48,487 nt of DNA, taken from a virus. The stretch is taken from the IMG/VR virus record IMGVR_UViG_3300037827_000159, positions 1-48,487 of that record, one strand, 5' to 3'. Both the position numbers and the translations under genes were made by a program. Below are positions 23,030-35,321 of the stretch, one piece after another (the first letter of the stretch is position 1; each line of letters starts with the position of its first letter). Under the pieces are notes generated by a model. The model worked only from the letters and a program-made list of their open reading frames with translations, had not been told where the DNA came from and did not search any database.

Positions 23030-24019
23030 CTAGACCGAATACGGGCCGGCGCCGGCGCTTGCGTTGATACCGCGCCAGTCGCGCGCCATCCACAGCGCTC
23101 GGAATCGGATCGCGATGTTCCACGAAAGCGTTGCCGGTTCGAACCAGGCCCGCATGTGATTGCGGAACTGGAAGCTCGCGATGAGCGACTGGCCGCTCTT
23201 AGGATCGACGCCCTGCGGCGCCGCCGAGAGATACCAGGCATACGGGTTCGTGAGGTACTGATCCGCGACGACTTCCTGGATGCCGTACTGGACGTTCGTC
23301 CGATTGTCCGACGTCATCGGAGCGCTTACCGATCCGACGATTTCCTTGAGCACCTTCTCGATGAAGGGGTGCCCAACGACGTAGACCGGGATGCGGTTGG
23401 ACGGCAGGCCGCGATCGGAGCGCAGCAAGCTCATGTTGAGCAGCGCGTCTTGGATCGCTTCGGCCGTCGGCGCGACGTTGCCGATGAGGTTCGAGTAGGT
23501 CTGATTGATCGCCGAGACCGGACCGTTCGGCCCTGGAACCGGCGCGAGCAAATGGTTTGCCGAGAAGAGCGGCTGGCCGTCGTACAGTGGAAACGACGGA
23601 TCGAACCCAAAGTTGATGACGGAGTGGATGTAGGTGTCTTCCGTGACCCGCTCCGAGTCGACGAGCATCGGCGCGGCCTTGCCCATCATGTCGTACGGAT
23701 CTTCGTACTGCGCTTCGTGCGAAATCGACGTCATTAACGCGAACGTCTGGAACTCGCCGTGCGACGGCACGAGCTCGATCGGCACGTCGTAGGCCGGAAC
23801 TTCGCCTTCTGCCTTCGGTTGGAGTAGACCGATCTCGGCGAACTGACCGTACTCTACGAAAGATTGGTTGACCGGGGGCTCTGCCATCGCGAAGAGCTTA
23901 GGCCAAAACGGCGGCTCCTCGAGCGATCGGTTCGAGACGATCTGAGCGATCCGGTGGGCTTGGGCAACCTTTGAGGATTTAGTTTGCCACTGGCCAGTTC
24001 CGTAGTTTCCGCCCGCCAT
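23030..24019 (-). CDS. Major capsid protein, HK97 fold
   Basis: 329 residues. The segment FPLYDGQPLFSANHLLAP is the strong signature of Mu gpT-like capsid proteins. TYSNLIGN, LRSDRGLPSNRIPVYVVGHP and YLTNPYAWYLSA follow in the expected order. The N-terminus contains helical and spine-type sequence (FVEYGQFAEIGLLQPKAEG). Length and position after portal and scaffold genes agree. No protease gene is evident nearby. Confidence 0.85.
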   Translation of the reverse strand: MAGGNYGTGQWQTKSSKVAQAHRIAQIVSNRSLEEPPFWPKLFAMAEPPVNQSFVEYGQFAEIGLLQPKAEGEVPAYDVPIELVPSHGEFQTFALMTSISHEAQYEDPYDMMGKAAPMLVDSERVTEDTYIHSVINFGFDPSFPLYDGQPLFSANHLLAPVPGPNGPVSAINQTYSNLIGNVAPTAEAIQDALLNMSLLRSDRGLPSNRIPVYVVGHPFIEKVLKEIVGSVSAPMTSDNRTNVQYGIQEVVADQYLTNPYAWYLSAAPQGVDPKSGQSLIASFQFRNHMRAWFEPATLSWNIAIRFRALWMARDWRGINASAGAGPYSV

Positions 24020-26787: not shown

Positions 26788-27069
26788 CTACTTAAACAAC
26801 GCCACAACTTGCGGCGGCACTTCTTTATTGGCTCGACGGTAGACGGCGAGCACGATGTTTTTTAGGACTTTCAGTGATCCTCGCGCGAACGATTGCTCTT
26901 TCTCGGACTTGGTATCGTCGAAGATAACGCCACGGGCGGCTTCGGCTTCACGCGCCGCGTCTTTGAGAACGTCGCCAAACCCTGGATGCTCGAGGACGTC
27001 GGCCGCTGCCGCCGAGTCTCGCCGCTCGCGCTCTTGCGCGGTCATGCCGCCGCCAGCAACGGCCGTCAT
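26788..27069 (-). CDS. Small helical protein between portal and scaffold
   Basis: 93 residues, ATG overlapping the portal stop (ATGA). The chain is helical and charged (TAQERERRDSAAAADVLEHP, KVLKNIVLAVYRRANKEVPP). I recognise no family. Its place makes a head-assembly role likely. Confidence 0.6.
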   Translation of the reverse strand: MTAVAGGGMTAQERERRDSAAAADVLEHPGFGDVLKDAAREAEAARGVIFDDTKSEKEQSFARGSLKVLKNIVLAVYRRANKEVPPQVVALFK

Positions 27070-29177
27070 CCCGCACCTGCTGCGGCGGGCTGTGGCGCAA
27101 CGTTCTGCGACGGCTGTCCGTTCTTCCCCGGTTGCCCCGGTTGCTGTTGACCCGGCGGTGGTTCGAAGAGCTTGGCAATATCGTCGGGTCCGAGAAGCGA
27201 CATACCGGCCTGCGGACGACCGCGGTTATAGCGCGTCGCGATCTCGCCATACGCCTGTTGCTTCTCGATTGCGGATTTCTCTTGGCCCTGTTTCTCTTGC
27301 TCTTGCTGCATCTTCGTAACGTCGTCGGGCGTACCGAAGATTCCGTCGAGCCCGCCGATGCCAAACTTGCTCGCGATCGCGCGCTCAAAGTTGTAACGGT
27401 GCATGAGATTTCCTTGGATGAACGGCGAGTCCTCGAACGTCTTTTTGAACCCGAGCATTTCCTCGAGTTGCGCCTGCTTGTCGAGCGGATCGTCTTCGCC
27501 TGATACGGACCGCTTGTACGGAAGCTGCATCATCTGTTTGGTGAGCGGCTTCGCGCCTTGCGGCGGGTTGCGTTCCGTTCCGTCGAGATTGAAACCGTAC
27601 TGTAATCTCAGGCTCCAGAGCGCGTCGAAAATCTGATGCGAGACGTACCGGAGCTCCATCGCAATATCGTTTGTGCCGAGGTCTGACTCGCCCGCTCGAG
27701 TCTTGACTCCGGCCGCGCTTTCGCGGCTTGTCGCGGGCTGCGAAGACCCTCCGAGAACCGAGTCGGCATCCGATCGAACCTGCTGATCTTGCTGATACGA
27801 CGAGAGCGGAACTTCGGGAAGCTGCGGATAGTACAGGACGTTTTGCAGCGAGCCTTGCTGCGCGTTACCAAGAACCCACCACACGCGCCCGTTGCCCCAC
27901 GACATTCCCGAATCTTTGATCTGGATACTCGTATCGGTAAGGAGCGGCACTTCGAGGCGCGTCGAGACGGCATCGTTACGCTGATTCCACGATAACGTCG
28001 CTTCGGCTTGGAATGGTCCGATGAGCTCGGGCACGCCGAAACCATAAGGCGAATCGGGCCGCGGATACGGAGCGAATGCGACGATCAAACGCATCGGTGC
28101 CATATCGGTATCCGGACAGTGACCGATCATAAAACCCGAGACTTCATGGATAAATAGGATGTTGGGCTCTTCGATCTTGTCGCCATCGAAATCGTACTGG
28201 CGCGAGTAGACAACCCAACAGCCGAGCGGCCCGCGATTCACGAACTCCTTGGCCGCGATCCCTTGGCCTTGGCCGACTCCGACGTCGATCTGTCCGCCGG
28301 CCGTCCAGTTGTAGACTCCTTGAAAGCGAGAAGCGTAATCGCTATAGCCCTGCAGATCGTACTCGAGCGCGCGGTTCACCCACTCTTCGTCGAGAATATC
28401 GTCCTCGATCATCGCGCGCAGGTCACTCTCGTAATAGAGGTGATAGATTGCGACCGCGGCGGCCGTCTCGACGCTCGTACTTTCGTTTGGCATAAGGAGC
28501 ACGTCTTTGAGGAGGCACGGGTTGAGAACGCCGTCGTCGTACACCGTGACCGGCATCGTAACGTACTCGGGCTTCGTTGAAATCTCGCCGCTCTCTTCGT
28601 CGACGGTCGGCATACCGGTCTCGTCGGTTACGGGAGACTCGACTTTGTAACGCTGCATCCGATCGTCTTTGACCCACGAGCATTCCATGAACGCCGTGCC
28701 GTCGCGCAACGCCATGTGCAGCATTTTGTCGTGCGCCTTCTGCCACGACATATAAGGTCCGCGCAGCCGGTGAAAATCGCTATTCCATCGGACTTGCATA
28801 TCGCTGGCTTGCGCCTGCGAACTCTCGTCTTGTCCCGTGAAGAGGTAGAAATCGGGGACGAAGGTGAGCGACGCGACTTCGGTTTTCTGCTTGCGCAGTT
28901 TAGAGAAGACGAGCGGAATCGTTAGGTCGGAGGAGTCGACGTACGGATCGTCCTCGACCCCTTCGTCGCGGTTGTCTCGCTCGTAGAGCGCGTAGGCGGT
29001 TCGAAGATTGGCTTCAAGCGCAGATCGCGTACCGATCGCGGAAATGATCGACTGCCACGCATCTGACGCGACAATGCCCCAATCTTCTTTCGATAACTTT
29101 CCGGCGCCCGCGTCTCGAACGACCTGGGACTTCGGACTCCTAGTTATCGTCCTTGTGAGTTTTTTCTTCCTCGGCAC
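27066..29177 (-). CDS. Portal protein
   Basis: 703 residues, GTG start. The N-terminal region has TIPLVFSKLRKQKTEVASLT and LHMALRDGTAFMECSWVKDD, and the middle has ATLSWNQRNDAVSTRLEVPL and QQDQQVRSDADSVLGGSSQP. These are patterns of P22-like portal proteins of large podovirus type. The C-terminus is a Gln/Pro-rich tail. The size and its place after the terminase agree. The portal forms the dodecameric DNA gate at the capsid vertex. Confidence 0.75.
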   Translation of the reverse strand: MPRKKKLTRTITRSPKSQVVRDAGAGKLSKEDWGIVASDAWQSIISAIGTRSALEANLRTAYALYERDNRDEGVEDDPYVDSSDLTIPLVFSKLRKQKTEVASLTFVPDFYLFTGQDESSQAQASDMQVRWNSDFHRLRGPYMSWQKAHDKMLHMALRDGTAFMECSWVKDDRMQRYKVESPVTDETGMPTVDEESGEISTKPEYVTMPVTVYDDGVLNPCLLKDVLLMPNESTSVETAAAVAIYHLYYESDLRAMIEDDILDEEWVNRALEYDLQGYSDYASRFQGVYNWTAGGQIDVGVGQGQGIAAKEFVNRGPLGCWVVYSRQYDFDGDKIEEPNILFIHEVSGFMIGHCPDTDMAPMRLIVAFAPYPRPDSPYGFGVPELIGPFQAEATLSWNQRNDAVSTRLEVPLLTDTSIQIKDSGMSWGNGRVWWVLGNAQQGSLQNVLYYPQLPEVPLSSYQQDQQVRSDADSVLGGSSQPATSRESAAGVKTRAGESDLGTNDIAMELRYVSHQIFDALWSLRLQYGFNLDGTERNPPQGAKPLTKQMMQLPYKRSVSGEDDPLDKQAQLEEMLGFKKTFEDSPFIQGNLMHRYNFERAIASKFGIGGLDGIFGTPDDVTKMQQEQEKQGQEKSAIEKQQAYGEIATRYNRGRPQAGMSLLGPDDIAKLFEPPPGQQQPGQPGKNGQPSQNVAPQPAAAGAG

Positions 29178-29700: not shown

Positions 29701-31500
29701 TCATCCCGCCCTTTTCCGCCTTTGAAGGTACGATCTTGTCGCCGAACCGGGCCGATAGGTTCCCGGATCGGAACCAAACTCGAGCGTCTCGAGCCAGCGG
29801 GCGGCGTCGGCGCCGGGCGGCGGACCCATCGCAAGGCGCGAAACTTTGTCGGCCGATAGCCCATGCACGTTGCCGTCGGAGTCCGTCCATGACATATCCC
29901 ACTCCGGCGGGTTGGCCGTCGGTAAGTCTTCCTGGTAATCTCCCTCGTCGGCCGGCACGAACGGAAGAACGTAGTGGCCCATCGCCCAGGAATCGATCGC
30001 GTCGTTTCGGATGAGCGACGGCCACTTGTCGATCTGCTGCAAAAGGTCGTAGCAGTATCCGCCGTAGTGATCGACCTGGCTCGGATCGTCGGCCATGCGG
30101 AAGAAGCACTGGTCACTTGAGACGTAGGTCTCCATCCGCCTGATCCGTTGGTGCTTGGCGCGGTGTCCGGACTTCTCGTGCTGCAGGGCCGAGAAGGGCT
30201 GCACGACGCAATCGAGCGCCTCTTTTTGGATGAACTTTCCGATCTCCACGATGAGCCAAGCGTCTCCGCCGGCCGATTCGATGACGACCCGGTTAGGCCG
30301 ATAGGTCAGGAGCATCTGCTTAATAATCTCAAGCGCGCGCGACGGGAGCAGAACGCGCTCGCGAGACTCAAGCGTAAACTGCCGCCGGTCGCGAGCGAAC
30401 CCCGTGACCGTCAACCCGTAGCCGCACGATCCGGTCTCGTCGGTGAGCGCCGGGTCGACGATGAGCGCGACGTAGAGCCGCACCTTCTCGCCGGCATACT
30501 GCGGGTCCAGGAGCGTGAGCGTCCGCTTGTACGGATACGAGAACTCGTACTTTCCCGAGAACTTGTGAATGTTTTGCGGCTTAAACGGTTTCTCGGCCGG
30601 ATCGACCATCCGGTTATACATCCAGGCATTGAAGCGCCGCACGTCGGTCTTGAGGCGCATGGACTCGAGTCGCTCTTCGTCGAGGTAGTCAGGAAAGTAA
30701 TACTGCCACGAACCGTCGGCGACTTGCCACTTGGCTTCGAAAACGTAGCTCTGCCACGGCAGGTCGTTCTCGGCGACGCCCGAGCGGCGCGCGGCTTCGT
30801 TGAGGTTCTCGATTCGACCGTAGCAATCGATTTCCGACCAGCGTGTTCCGGTAAGCAACACGGCGCCCCACGACGGAAGCTGCGGATCGAACGCCTCGAT
30901 ATAACTCCACAGGTTCTCTTGCTCTTTGATCGAGTCGCAGTTGACTTCCGTTACAAGGTCGTCGCCGTAGATAAAATCGGGATGGTTGCCCGTCGATGTG
31001 CCACTGGTTCCCATCGTGAAGACCGTCGGGTCCGCGCGCGATATCGTGCGCCACGGAATGACGATCGCATCTTGGTTCCACACCTCTGCGCCAAAGTAGG
31101 GGTCGCCGAAATAATGCACGACCTTCGGGCTGCGTAAAATGTTTTGCACCAGCCGCAAGAGCTTGCGCGCTTCTTCGCGGGTCGAGCGGAAAATGCCAAT
31201 GGAGATATCAGGGTTCTCGAGCACGCGGCGCGCGATACTCTTAGCAACGCCGTAGGTCTTATTTGAAAACCGCGGCGCGAGAAACATTGAAGAGAGCGGC
31301 TTGCGGCGTAGCCTCGACATATCCGGCCCGGCCGAATCGAAGATGTCGAACATTTGCTTGTGTGGCTGATCGTAGACCGGCCACTTATCGGTCGCCTGCC
31401 AAAAGGCAAACGTGCTCTTGGTCATCCGGCGCGCTTCGGCCCATTCTTTTGGGCCGAGCTCGGGTCGCGGTATCGCCGCCGCTCGCGGTCCGCGGGGCAT
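29701..31500 (-). CDS. Terminase large subunit
   Basis: 599 residues. The ATPase part has an atypical Walker A, APRFSNKT (75-82), then ISIGIFRSTREEARKLLRLV. Walker B is FIYGDD (176-181) and the coupling segment is AVLLTGTRWSE, an order like T7 gp19-type terminases. The nuclease part has LIVDPAL, VIESAGGDAW and RNDAIDSWAMGHY, supplying the three acidic residues. It drives DNA into the prohead and cuts it. The ATG shares a base with the upstream TAA. Confidence 0.88.
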   Translation of the reverse strand: MPRGPRAAAIPRPELGPKEWAEARRMTKSTFAFWQATDKWPVYDQPHKQMFDIFDSAGPDMSRLRRKPLSSMFLAPRFSNKTYGVAKSIARRVLENPDISIGIFRSTREEARKLLRLVQNILRSPKVVHYFGDPYFGAEVWNQDAIVIPWRTISRADPTVFTMGTSGTSTGNHPDFIYGDDLVTEVNCDSIKEQENLWSYIEAFDPQLPSWGAVLLTGTRWSEIDCYGRIENLNEAARRSGVAENDLPWQSYVFEAKWQVADGSWQYYFPDYLDEERLESMRLKTDVRRFNAWMYNRMVDPAEKPFKPQNIHKFSGKYEFSYPYKRTLTLLDPQYAGEKVRLYVALIVDPALTDETGSCGYGLTVTGFARDRRQFTLESRERVLLPSRALEIIKQMLLTYRPNRVVIESAGGDAWLIVEIGKFIQKEALDCVVQPFSALQHEKSGHRAKHQRIRRMETYVSSDQCFFRMADDPSQVDHYGGYCYDLLQQIDKWPSLIRNDAIDSWAMGHYVLPFVPADEGDYQEDLPTANPPEWDMSWTDSDGNVHGLSADKVSRLAMGPPPGADAARWLETLEFGSDPGTYRPGSATRSYLQRRKRAG

Positions 31501-32110: not shown

Positions 32111-32392
32111 CTACCTTCCTTTATTGCGAGATTTGCGGTTTGCCGCTTTTCGTTTCGGCTTGGTTTTCGTTTCGATATTACGCCCCTGAGAATCGGCGCT
32201 CGACTTCTTGGCGCCCTTCTTCTTGCCGGCGGCCTTCTTCTTTTTGGCTTTGTTTTTGTTGACCGTCGCGTATCCGATCGACTTAGCATCCTTCGCGCTC
32301 TTGCCGCTCTTCTTCATCGACTTGGCAACGTGCGAAGCCATGCGGTCCTGTTTAGCAGTAAACCGTTTTTTCTTACCCTTGGTCGTCGGCAT
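32111..32392 (-). CDS. Lys-rich DNA-binding-like protein
   Basis: 93 residues from an ATG with GGAGG upstream. The longer frame to 32587 lacks support. The motif KSGKSAKDAKSIGYATVNK is a version of the GKS-x-x-A-x-x-I-A-x-ATVNK segment seen in many small phage proteins. The rest is Lys/Ala-rich (NKAKKKKAAGKKKGAKKS). Nucleic-acid binding is likely. Confidence 0.65.
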   Translation of the reverse strand: MPTTKGKKKRFTAKQDRMASHVAKSMKKSGKSAKDAKSIGYATVNKNKAKKKKAAGKKKGAKKSSADSQGRNIETKTKPKRKAANRKSRNKGR

Positions 32393-32873
32393 GGTGGCCC
32401 TCCTTCGGTTGATAGTCGAGCCGTTCAACGGCGGCGCAGTAGTCCCCCCAATCGGCGCCGAGCTCGCGGAGCAAGAGACGCTCGACTCCATCGGCAAACA
32501 TGTGCTCGTCGTGATAGGGCGCGTGCCTGTCTTCGCCGGGCTCGGAGTCGGCGGTAATTTCACAACTGCATCCAAAGACCCTGACAAGCGTCTGACAAGC
32601 GCACTCGCCAGGAAACTCCACCGGCTTGTGGCCTTTCCGTAGTCGCTCGTAGAGCTTGTCGAACTCCGTCGAGCGGTCTTTCTTGCCGTTGGCGACCTGG
32701 AGCGCCGCCTCGATCTGCTCGTGAATCGCGCAAGCGAAGCCGAAGCGCCAGTCGTCCATCCGGGAGACGAGGACTCCCAGGTCCGACTCGTGTATCCCGT
32801 AATCGCCGATCGTGTCGTACTCTTGATCGTTGTGCGGGATTGTCGTTACCTCGACGTTGCGAATCTCTTGCAT
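32373..32873 (-). CDS. Hypothetical acidic protein with Cys cluster
   Basis: 166 residues, ATG start. The sequence is acidic and rich in His/Asp. It contains VEFPGECACQTLVRVFGCSC, whose four cysteines might bind metal. The N-terminus is EVTTIPHNDQEYDTIGDYGI. It overlaps the next gene by 20 bases. No family recognised. Confidence 0.6.
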   Translation of the reverse strand: MQEIRNVEVTTIPHNDQEYDTIGDYGIHESDLGVLVSRMDDWRFGFACAIHEQIEAALQVANGKKDRSTEFDKLYERLRKGHKPVEFPGECACQTLVRVFGCSCEITADSEPGEDRHAPYHDEHMFADGVERLLLRELGADWGDYCAAVERLDYQPKEGHHADDQG

Positions 32874-32874
32874 G

Positions 32875-33075
32875 TTAGCCTTTCACTGGAACGCGCTGGA
32901 ACTCGTGACCGCGACGCCACGAATGCTCCTGGCTTGGAATGCACGGGTCGGCCGCGTGCGACTCGGGCTTGCGGCACCAATGGCACGACCGCCCCTCGCG
33001 GCAGGTCATCTTCTCGCCGATCCTCGAGTTGCAAAAAATACAGCGAGTCTCGATGACCTCAAACTGAAAGCTCAT
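32875..33075 (-). CDS. Small zinc-finger protein
   Basis: 66 residues from an ATG overlapping the upstream TGA (ATGA). ETRCIFCNSRIGEKMTCREG and then SCHWCRKPESHAADPC give a row of CxxC pairs suited to one or two zinc sites. No known family. A longer frame beyond 33075 is a shadow of the neighbour. Confidence 0.6.
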   Translation of the reverse strand: MSFQFEVIETRCIFCNSRIGEKMTCREGRSCHWCRKPESHAADPCIPSQEHSWRRGHEFQRVPVKG

Positions 33076-33443
33076 CCTGTCGTCACCCACAGCCCCGAGG
33101 GAAGAAGCGTCGGCTCGGGCGGCTTGGAAAACTCTTCGTCGCGCCCGGCGCAGTTGCGCTCGGTAATATGAAAGAACGTCTCGCCAAGCTGCGTCGTGAT
33201 CTCTTCGCCGCGGCCCATATCGAAACAGATAAGGTCGCCGACCTCGACGCGCTTCGTCTTGTTGACCGATACGACCAGCCCTTGAAACTTGTGGCGAGCC
33301 TTGTAGGTCGGTACGTCGACTCCGCCTGCCGTGCCTTCGTCGACCAGCGGCACACACAGGATGCCCTCGGCGTACGACGGCTTCCAGAACGCTTCCGTGT
33401 TGCACGATTCAAGCGCCGCCTCGAGTTTATCCAGCGACAGCAC
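33072..33443 (-). CDS. GroES-like co-chaperonin, copy 1 (divergent)
   Basis: 123 residues, GTG with GGGAG upstream. The core reads VDEGTAGGVDVPTYKAR, FQGLVVSVNKTKRVEVGDLI, then EEITTQLGETFFHITERNC. This follows the GroES order: mobile loop with AGG and V-P, G-x-V-V-x-V, VxVGDxVxF, GxEI, GExxxxIxExDI. The N-terminal ~28 residues are extra. GroES caps GroEL, and phage versions (such as T4 gp31) help fold capsid protein. No GroEL gene is present, so it would act with the host chaperonin. Confidence 0.6.
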   Translation of the reverse strand: MLSLDKLEAALESCNTEAFWKPSYAEGILCVPLVDEGTAGGVDVPTYKARHKFQGLVVSVNKTKRVEVGDLICFDMGRGEEITTQLGETFFHITERNCAGRDEEFSKPPEPTLLPSGLWVTTG

Positions 33444-34008
33444 GTTTTCTCCCTGGAAGGTGGAGCCTCGCCGCGGCTTCGTCTCGCTCGCGTTCGATCT
33501 CTTTCTCGACTTCGGTATCGGCGATAACGGCCTCCTCGATCGCCGCTCGGGCGCGGGCTTCGTCGTTCGTTGCCGCCGGACGGCCCAACGGCGTTACACT
33601 CGCACGCGGCTTAAACTGCGACCCCGCCATTTGCACGATCCCGAGCTCCATGCAGTGTACCGCGAGGTCCGTTATCTTTTCCGGGCCGACGGCTTCAGCG
33701 ATCGCGACGAGCGACTCGTGCGTCTCGAGCGAGACGGCCAAGCGCAGCGGTATCCGAATCTTCTGCTCTTGCGAGAGCTTGCGCGCCTTGGCCTTGGTCG
33801 CCGCGAGGCGTTGCTCGACGGTCTGCGCTTTGGGCTCAGGCTCCGGCGCCGCGGCCGGTGCGCGCGGGACGCGAGGCTTCTTTGGAGGCGGTGCTTTCGG
33901 GGCAGCCTTAGGCGTTAACGGTTTCGGTTCACTGGCGACAACCTCGGCCGCAATCTTTTCTATCTCGGTACTAAAGAGAAGCGTGGTGGGGGTTCTATCC
34001 TCATCCAT
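33427..34008 (-). CDS. Hypothetical protein with Pro/Ala linker
   Basis: 193 residues, TAATG start. Residues ~25-65 are a Lys/Pro/Ala linker (TPKAAPKAPPPKKPRVPRAP). A domain follows with IRIPLRLAVSLETHESLVAI and ITDLAVHCMELGIVQM, whose strand-helix-helix look recalls ribbon-helix-helix proteins. A charged C-terminal helix ends the chain. Function unknown. Confidence 0.55.
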   Translation of the reverse strand: MDEDRTPTTLLFSTEIEKIAAEVVASEPKPLTPKAAPKAPPPKKPRVPRAPAAAPEPEPKAQTVEQRLAATKAKARKLSQEQKIRIPLRLAVSLETHESLVAIAEAVGPEKITDLAVHCMELGIVQMAGSQFKPRASVTPLGRPAATNDEARARAAIEEAVIADTEVEKEIERERDEAAARLHLPGRKRAVAG

Positions 34009-34286
34009 TACGCCAACCCGAGCTTCTCGTGCTGCCCTTTATACCGTTCGGCCGGGCGCACGATCCGATCGACGTCGCGAAACTTCGGGTCTTCCCAATT
34101 GATAGCACTCGCCAGATAGCACTCTATGACCGTACGGCACAAGCCACTTATCCCGCCGCTGTCGGTGAGCGCAGAGAGTAGCTTTATGGCGGCGCTCGTA
34201 TTGGAAGAAAAGTGGACGTTGTGTAGCACGTCGACGCGCGGCCGTGGCCCCTTCTTCCGCCGAACCTTCTCCGCCGTTGCCGTCAT
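34008..34286 (-). CDS. Small protein, possible ribbon-helix-helix
   Basis: 92 residues. The basic N-terminus KVRRKKGPRPR is followed by VDVLHNVHFSSNTSAAIKLL and SGLCRTVIECYLA, a short strand then two helices that would suit a ribbon-helix-helix fold. It overlaps both neighbours (ATGA and TAATG). Weak assignment. Confidence 0.5.
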   Translation of the reverse strand: MTATAEKVRRKKGPRPRVDVLHNVHFSSNTSAAIKLLSALTDSGGISGLCRTVIECYLASAINWEDPKFRDVDRIVRPAERYKGQHEKLGLA

Positions 34287-34600
34287 TGAATCTGAGCCTT
34301 CTGTTTTCGGATGAAGTCCATAAGGAAGGCGCGCGCCTCCTCGGTATCATCCTTACCGAACTTTGCGTCGACAACCACATCTTCAGCAACGCTAACAGCT
34401 TTCTCTAGGAGGTCTCGGGCAACGGTTGCATGGTCGTATTCTACGGCCTTCTCGTAGCAGGCGCAGCAATGGAAACTCATGTGCGCGGTTCCAACCTCTA
34501 GCGACTTATGGGAATCGTCACGCATATTAGGCGTGTGCGTGTCGGACCGTGTCGTATCGAAAGGCCCGCTTCCCGTTCCCTGATCCTGCCCCTTAGCCAT
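34283..34600 (-). CDS. Hypothetical protein
   Basis: 105 residues. The N-terminus is polar. FHCCACYEKAVEYDHATVAR, then LEKAVSVAEDVVVDAKFG, gives a Cys-rich turn and a helical hairpin. No recognised family. ATG start three bases after the stop of the GroES-like gene. Confidence 0.55.
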   Translation of the reverse strand: MAKGQDQGTGSGPFDTTRSDTHTPNMRDDSHKSLEVGTAHMSFHCCACYEKAVEYDHATVARDLLEKAVSVAEDVVVDAKFGKDDTEEARAFLMDFIRKQKAQIQ

Positions 34601-34603
34601 CGC

Positions 34604-34990
34604 CTAGCGCCGCTGCTGCTGCGCCGGCTGCGGGATCGGGCGCTGGATGACCTCGACCTTCTCGCCTTCGTCGACGATCGCCAGCACGTCGCGCTCGGGA
34701 GTCAACTGATGATCGATCCCGTCTATCCGGATCTCGAGACCCGTCCAGGAACGATAGAGAACGCGGTCTCCCTCTTTAATAGAGATTTTTACGTCGTCGC
34801 CGAGCGCGCGGACGATCCCCTCCGACGGCTTACTCTGAACCTTGTTATCCTTACCGGGAGCCAAGAGCGACGAGCCTGGTATGGCTTGCGCCGTGACCGC
34901 AACGTCCGAGCCAGCGAAGGCGACGCTCTCCGTCTTGTCGGCGGCCGTATCGGCCGGAACGATGAGCACGTTAACCGCGAGTGGCTTCAA
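34604..34990 (-). CDS. groES-like: GroES-like co-chaperonin, copy 2
   Basis: 128 residues from a TTG preceded by AGAGGGA. An ATG at 35041 would add 17 residues and overlap the neighbour by 71 bases. MKPLAVNVLIVPADT matches the GroES N-terminus. IPGSSLLAPGK stands for the mobile loop, SKPSEGIVRALGDDV for the next strand, and IKEGDRVLYRSWTGLEIRID, then PERDVLAIVDE, for the C-terminal half. A ~20-residue insert precedes the loop, and a tail of Gln/Pro/Arg follows. It is likely to replace host GroES for folding a phage protein. Confidence 0.75.
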   Translation of the reverse strand: MKPLAVNVLIVPADTAADKTESVAFAGSDVAVTAQAIPGSSLLAPGKDNKVQSKPSEGIVRALGDDVKISIKEGDRVLYRSWTGLEIRIDGIDHQLTPERDVLAIVDEGEKVEVIQRPIPQPAQQQRR

Positions 34991-35321
34991 AGTTTTTATT
35001 TCCCTCTTGGCAAGCAGCGTCGAACTCCCGCTCGTTGGCATAGCGAGCCCGACGCTTGGCGGTAAGTTGTCCGATCGGCCGGACCGGTACGGGAACCCCG
35101 TACGTCTCAGGATCGGGAAGACCATTAATGAACGTGTCGCGCATCAACGCGCGCAGTGGAGCGATCTTCTTGGCGTCTTCCATTTCAAAATACCGCTCGA
35201 TCCCCAAACGAAGAAGCCCGGCGCATAAACGCGACCGGGACTTCTCTTCATACCGAGCGATACGGTCTATATCACGCCGCAAAGCGCGAGGGACCCAAAG
35301 AGTAATCTGCACCTCGGACAC
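34971..35321 (-). CDS. Ribbon-helix-helix DNA-binding protein
   Basis: 116 residues, GTG start. VQITLWVPRALRRDIDRIAR, then SRSRLCAGLLRLGIERYFE, is a classic strand-helix-helix of the CopG/Arc type. The remainder is charged and may contact other proteins. A copy of the ACCCCTACCGC motif lies 16 bases before its start. It is probably a transcription regulator of the phage. Confidence 0.65.
   Translation of the reverse strand: MSEVQITLWVPRALRRDIDRIARYEEKSRSRLCAGLLRLGIERYFEMEDAKKIAPLRALMRDTFINGLPDPETYGVPVPVRPIGQLTAKRRARYANEREFDAACQEGNKNFEATRG

Follow-up and report, generated by a model that had tools for sequence, protein, structure and literature searches.

Phage T4 produces a GroES-type cap, gp31, and relies on no phage-encoded GroEL. 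Gp31 lacks the roof, has a mobile loop of 22 rather than 16 residues and encloses a chamber enlarged for the 56 kDa protein gp23 (PMC6318259). Two GroES-like ORFs, CBB_131 and CBB_268, have been described in Pectobacterium phage CBB (PMC5259590). A search of 50,697 phage records using E. coli GroES as a query returned a match in 90, and 14 of them contained two GroES places, all jumbo phages of at least 355 kb; the query would miss genes as diverged as the two described below, so this search may have passed over pairs in small phages. Pfam analysis of GAP32 and XbC2 identified two Cpn10 genes in each (47-60 bits), located more than 120 kb apart, and GroEL (PF00118) was found in neither. The original prediction for the locus studied here held that two phage GroES genes without GroEL would be unusual. 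The claim is partly right: CBB and the 14 jumbo records provide a precedent, but no small phage in the collection searched showed such a pair. No literature report of viral chaperonins in metagenomes was found.

The DNA analysed here (hereafter the window), a linear virus record from IMG/VR, is 48,487 bases long, may be incomplete and comes from a small, uncultured, soil-type phage. The two ORFs proposed as GroES-like, designated P1 and P2, were found at exactly the predicted coordinates; the strand, which had been left unstated, is the minus strand. The features relevant to the analysis are as follows.

33072-35321, minus strand: gene cluster made of 34971-35321, P2, 34283-34600, 34008-34286, 33427-34008 and P1 (ORF map; order kept in related contigs)
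34604-34990, minus strand: P2, GroES/Cpn10 family co-chaperonin gene, 128 residues, TTG start (Pfam Cpn10, 41 bits; start deduced from stops in relatives)
34838-34903, minus strand: extra stretch in the P2 mobile-loop region, residues 30-51, about 22 in all (seen on alignment to GroES of Eremiobacterota and phages; gap placement approximate)
33072-33443, minus strand: P1, probable diverged GroES/Cpn10 relative, 123 residues, GTG start (Pfam Cpn10; hhalign to GroES profiles; relatives at the same place, 68-70% identical)
33384-33443, minus strand: P1 N-terminal extension, residues 1-20 (kept in relatives, not in cellular or phage GroES alignments)
33309-33326, minus strand: P1 putative mobile-loop segment, residues 40-45, GGVDVP in the window and GGVEVV in relatives (acidic at a position that is hydrophobic in GroES; alignments)
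33075-33140, minus strand: P1 C-terminal tail DEEFSKPxEPTxLPSGLW (kept in relatives, not in GroES alignments)
29701-31500, minus strand: terminase large subunit, downstream of P1 and P2 (phrog_38, E 8e-42)
27066-29177, minus strand: portal or head-tail connector, 703 residues (phrog_332, E 1.4e-11)
23030-24019, minus strand: probable major capsid protein, 329 residues (phrog_4523, E 4.6e-5; Phage_capsid_4 at 26.1 bits, narrowly missing the cut-off of 27)

Genes within the cluster abut or overlap, and the cluster, which is probably expressed as one transcript, leads into the terminase, portal and probable capsid genes on the same strand. The P1 start is the GTG at 33443, with GGGAG just 5' of it. 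P2 starts with the TTG at 34990, as originally predicted: three relatives carry an in-frame stop a few codons 5' of the matching TTG, and these stops exclude the alternative 173-residue product initiated at the ATG at 35125. Inspection by eye suggested that the small ORFs around P1 and P2 (33427-34008, 34008-34286 and 34971-35321) encode ribbon-helix-helix or regulator-type proteins, and weak PHROG matches to Arc/CopG were obtained for 34971-35321; one of the three could be a small terminase subunit or a late regulator. Upstream of the terminase gene, 32111-32587 encodes a very basic, Lys-rich product, possibly DNA-binding, whose last 27 residues are kept in relatives. Elsewhere in the window, the plus strand between 39530 and 45205 encodes a RecT-like annealing protein, a DnaB-like helicase and a C-5 cytosine DNA methyltransferase. 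The 19517-20038 gene, HNH-type endonuclease-like by eye, shares 37% identity with a homologue located elsewhere in a related contig (L182, 9542-9916), beside the terminase region, and is possibly mobile.

Profile searches placed P2 securely in the GroES/Cpn10 family. Its only Pfam match was PF00166 (Cpn10; 41 bits, E 2e-10, curated cut-off 21.1), its relatives scored 38-39 bits against the same model, and many NCBIfam GroES models matched, each under its strict cut-off. Against the chains of solved structures, P2 retrieved co-chaperonins (best E 1e-11), with the chloroplast-type Cpn20 7ekq at the top. The strands IKEGD (71-75, the V/I-x-x-GD segment) and DVLAIVD (101-107, the final strand) are both invariant in relatives, and a G-x-EI segment is also present. 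The loop region is lengthened, with VAF (23-25) and SLL (41-43) as candidate tripeptides and no clear GG before either, and the C-terminal tail is longer than that of cellular GroES in the alignment. The long insert originally predicted in P2 is thus present; the alignment sets it, with some ambiguity, after the putative GroEL-binding tripeptide and not before the mobile loop as proposed.

P1 is far more diverged and is probably a GroES/Cpn10 relative, judging from sequence comparisons. PF00166 was again the sole Pfam match, at 22.6 bits (E 1.1e-4) for a cut-off of 21.1, and its four relatives (68-70% identical) were unreported by this model even at E 10. GroES profiles were therefore built from phage and cellular sequences. 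Using hhalign, columns 36-96 of the P1 family aligned with columns 21-90 of the GroES profiles in the correct register (P 1.5e-5 to 2e-5), a result equalled by none of 120 shuffles; the relatives alone gave P 1.7e-4 to 1.9e-3, and the real score was reached by none of 270 column shuffles, either of the whole P1 alignment or of the relatives alone. The spacing between K/R-P and G-G is 18 residues, equal to that of E. coli GroES. GGV (40-42) and VEVGD (66-70) are recognisable, and the extra N-terminal residues first noticed in P1 correspond to the 20-residue extension listed above. The loop keeps GG and the outer hydrophobic residues of the tripeptide; its middle residue is D or E, and the aligned GroES sequences have no acidic residue there, a substitution that may weaken GroEL binding. 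The original prediction that both proteins keep the GroES order of segments is borne out by GGV and VEVGD in P1 and by IKEGD, G-x-EI and DVLAIV in P2, except that the final I/L-A is poor in P1, where the last strand reads NCAG; it is better in the relatives (MLSG). Searches of named phages by tblastn gave no match to P1, and scans found no homologue outside its near relatives. Weak P1-profile matches in Eremiobacterota genomes (E ~1e-3) lay in, or antisense to, short-chain dehydrogenase-like and other unrelated genes and were discarded as noise.

When the phage GroES profile was compared with the 44 window proteins, P2 (51.2) and P1 (31.4) ranked first and second, the next of the 42 other window proteins, which served as controls together with column shuffles, scoring 17.6; none of 150 shuffles of the P1 and P2 alignments matched the real scores. 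The PHROG search also gave Cpn10/GroES matches. Alignment with cellular GroES indicated that 8-10 residues of the typical roof hairpin are missing in P1 and P2 alike. The roof is not required for membership of the family, gp31 having none and one GAP32 copy being short there too. BLAST detected no similarity between P1 and P2, and defence-system models matched neither. AlphaFold models, with 4-5 close sequences per alignment, had pLDDT values of 41.8 (P1) and 36.5 (P2) and were too poor for a fold call. Collectively, Pfam matches, profiles and shuffles gave strong support for P2, and moderate support for P1, as the two divergent GroES-like genes that had been proposed. GroEL (PF00118) had no match in the window or in any of four related contigs. 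All these records may be incomplete; with that caveat, a GroEL partner, if any, has to come from the host.

Both genes, in the same order, are conserved in IMG/VR contigs 3300050118_17, 3300037233_55 and 3300027692_7 and in PMUK01000233.1; 3300050130_29 contains P1 and stops before P2. Since 3300050118_17, 3300037233_55 and PMUK01000233.1 gave equal match figures for P1 and P2, they are near-copies and not independent, 3300027692_7 being distinct. Identity to relatives is 96-98% for P2 and 68-70% for P1. P1 and P2 are under purifying selection: dN/dS values against two relatives were 0.03 and 0.06 for P2 and 0.24 and 0.23 for P1, and about 0.04 between the P1 genes of these two relatives, for comparison with 0.03-0.05 for portal and 0.13 for terminase. 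Nucleotide identity to 3300037233_55 is 97-100% as far as about codon 14 of P1, where it falls abruptly to 52-78%, indicating that the window carries a different P1 allele from this point, as after recombination. The low-identity stretch covers 33072-33405 and continues to about 32130; no match to 32373-32873 or to most of 32111-32587 was found in the larger relatives, and this stretch with its adjoining genes is a recombined variable block. Both P1 alleles are GroES-like, keeping the GG-V-x-V loop, the GD strand and the overall register. Beyond these contigs, no Cpn10 was found in 44 distant terminase relatives, many of them fragments, so the pair is not general across the wider terminase group. 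Other phage matches to P2 were weak and restricted to unannotated human fecal phage fragments.

P2 similarity and one binned contig suggest that the host is likely a member of Candidatus Eremiobacterota. The C-terminal half of P2 scored 59-66 bits against Eremiobacterota GroES and at most 45 against the other GroES tried, a thin set from other phyla that included GroES of E. coli, B. subtilis and T. thermophilus. With the P2 profile, cellular GroES of Eremiobacterota scored as high as 52 bits, versus at most 36.5 in 59 Patescibacteria. PMUK01000233.1, which carries both genes and a terminase 90% identical to that of the window, is binned in the Candidatus Eremiobacterota genome palsa_1485, a MAG that has its own GroES. 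This 28.5 kb contig matches the window phage over most of its length and has no recognised bacterial flank; binning alone is therefore weak evidence for the host, and an integrated prophage in an Eremiobacterota genome is left unproven by it. Two other Eremiobacterota genomes contain distant relatives (26% identity) of the probable capsid protein, at G064:C3:15328-16152 and G065:C20:47560-48216. These loci are possible prophages, and reading of the adjacent stretches turned up no GroES-like gene.

We lean towards a model in which P2 is a gp31-like cap replacing host GroES, and P1 acts as an additional, diverged co-chaperonin. P2 probably derives from a GroES resembling the Candidatus Eremiobacterota protein, captured by the phage and then remodelled by loss of the roof hairpin and extension of the mobile loop by about 22 residues. 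P2 would probably form a heptameric ring capping host GroEL in place of host GroES, as gp31 does, and the GroEL chamber so capped would help to fold phage virion proteins. P1 would be another roofless Cpn10-type protein, far more diverged and bearing an extended N terminus and a conserved tail; most likely it would act as a separate cap for other clients or at another stage rather than as an obligatory partner of P2. The original suggestion of a cap tuned to the capsid protein has a weak rationale. The probable major capsid protein has only 329 residues, far below the 56 kDa gp23 that is the client of gp31, and the reason given for gp31, a chamber enlarged for gp23, consequently does not carry over. 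The portal (703 residues) or tail proteins could be clients instead.

A serious rival to this model, though we consider it unlikely, is that P1 descends from GroES but has given up capping GroEL for a new role, such as blocking or diverting host GroEL/GroES or serving as an accessory in the virion or in packaging, which would leave P2 as the sole working cap. The acidic loop-tripeptide residue, the N-terminal extension and the conserved C-terminal tail outside the barrel are consistent with such a change, as are the faster evolution of P1 (dN/dS 0.23-0.24 versus 0.03-0.06 for P2) and its position nearest the terminase block. Retention of the loop, the GD strand and the register in both P1 alleles argues against it.

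A capping function shared by the two proteins appears about equally unlikely. In its broader form, P1 and P2 would be dedicated subunits of a phage-made hetero-heptameric cap, or interchangeable caps, that reprogramme the GroEL of the uncultivated phylum Eremiobacterota into chambers differing in size or surface, with labour divided between them; this is a speculative reading. The last strand is part of the GroES subunit contact, and it is poorly kept in P1. This weighs against the mixed cap in the strict sense, originally envisaged, in which P1 and P2 would build a single hetero-heptamer and the mix of subunits would tune the chamber, and which we regard as doubtful. Co-inheritance in one gene cluster favours it, as do the top match of P2 to a chloroplast-type Cpn20 and the functional hetero-oligomers of seven GroES domains that chloroplast Cpn10 and Cpn20 make (PMC5780408). 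However, P1 and P2 have no BLAST similarity, P1 evolves much faster, and a divergent P1 allele next to a nearly unchanged P2 would be awkward for an obligate partner. Finally, it is very improbable that the likeness of P1 to GroES is due to chance and P2 is the only co-chaperonin: the marginal Pfam score, the unreported relatives and the noisy profile matches to dehydrogenase genes would fit, but Cpn10 is the only Pfam family of P1, no shuffle reproduced its score, the register is right along the protein and the next window protein scores well below it.

Returning to the model of a gp31-like P2 with P1 as a second co-chaperonin, the locus can be compared with known systems. Like gp31, P2 is a predicted GroES-type cap encoded by a phage in which no GroEL was found, lacks the roof and has a longer mobile-loop region. 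T4 has one such gene and two are present here; the loop exceeds that of GroES by 6 residues in gp31 and by about 22 in P2; and P2, unlike gp31, keeps clear sequence similarity to cellular GroES. Its C-terminal half is 41-48% identical to Eremiobacterota cellular GroES (about 101 residues), sharing EG-x-x-RA-x-G, GDRVLYR and D-V/I-LAIVD, and differs from it by the absence of the roof, the loop insert and the longer C-terminal tail. P2 also hints at the host of this uncultured lineage of phages. Chloroplasts likewise contain two types of GroES subunit within a single compartment; Cpn20, however, has two GroES domains per chain, and mixing, demonstrated for the chloroplast proteins, would be a hypothesis for P1 and P2. 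Xanthomonas phage PBR31 and Shewanella phage 1/44 resemble the window phage in size (40-50 kb), in carrying GroES amid genes for terminase or head/tail proteins and in lacking GroEL, but have one Cpn10 gene each. The Mimasvirus-type jumbo phages CBB, GAP32 and XbC2 share two distinct Cpn10 genes per phage. Their genomes are far larger and, in GAP32 and XbC2, both copies match Cpn10 well and lie far apart, whereas in this record of about 48 kb a distance of 1.2 kb separates the two genes and one copy is far more diverged. The locus thus brings the pattern of two GroES genes in one phage from jumbo phages down to a phage of about 48 kb. Both genes lie in a single cluster, and P2 has a predicted GroEL-binding loop region of unusual length. 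Both proteins are short, and the use of two caps, separate or mixed, is directly testable.
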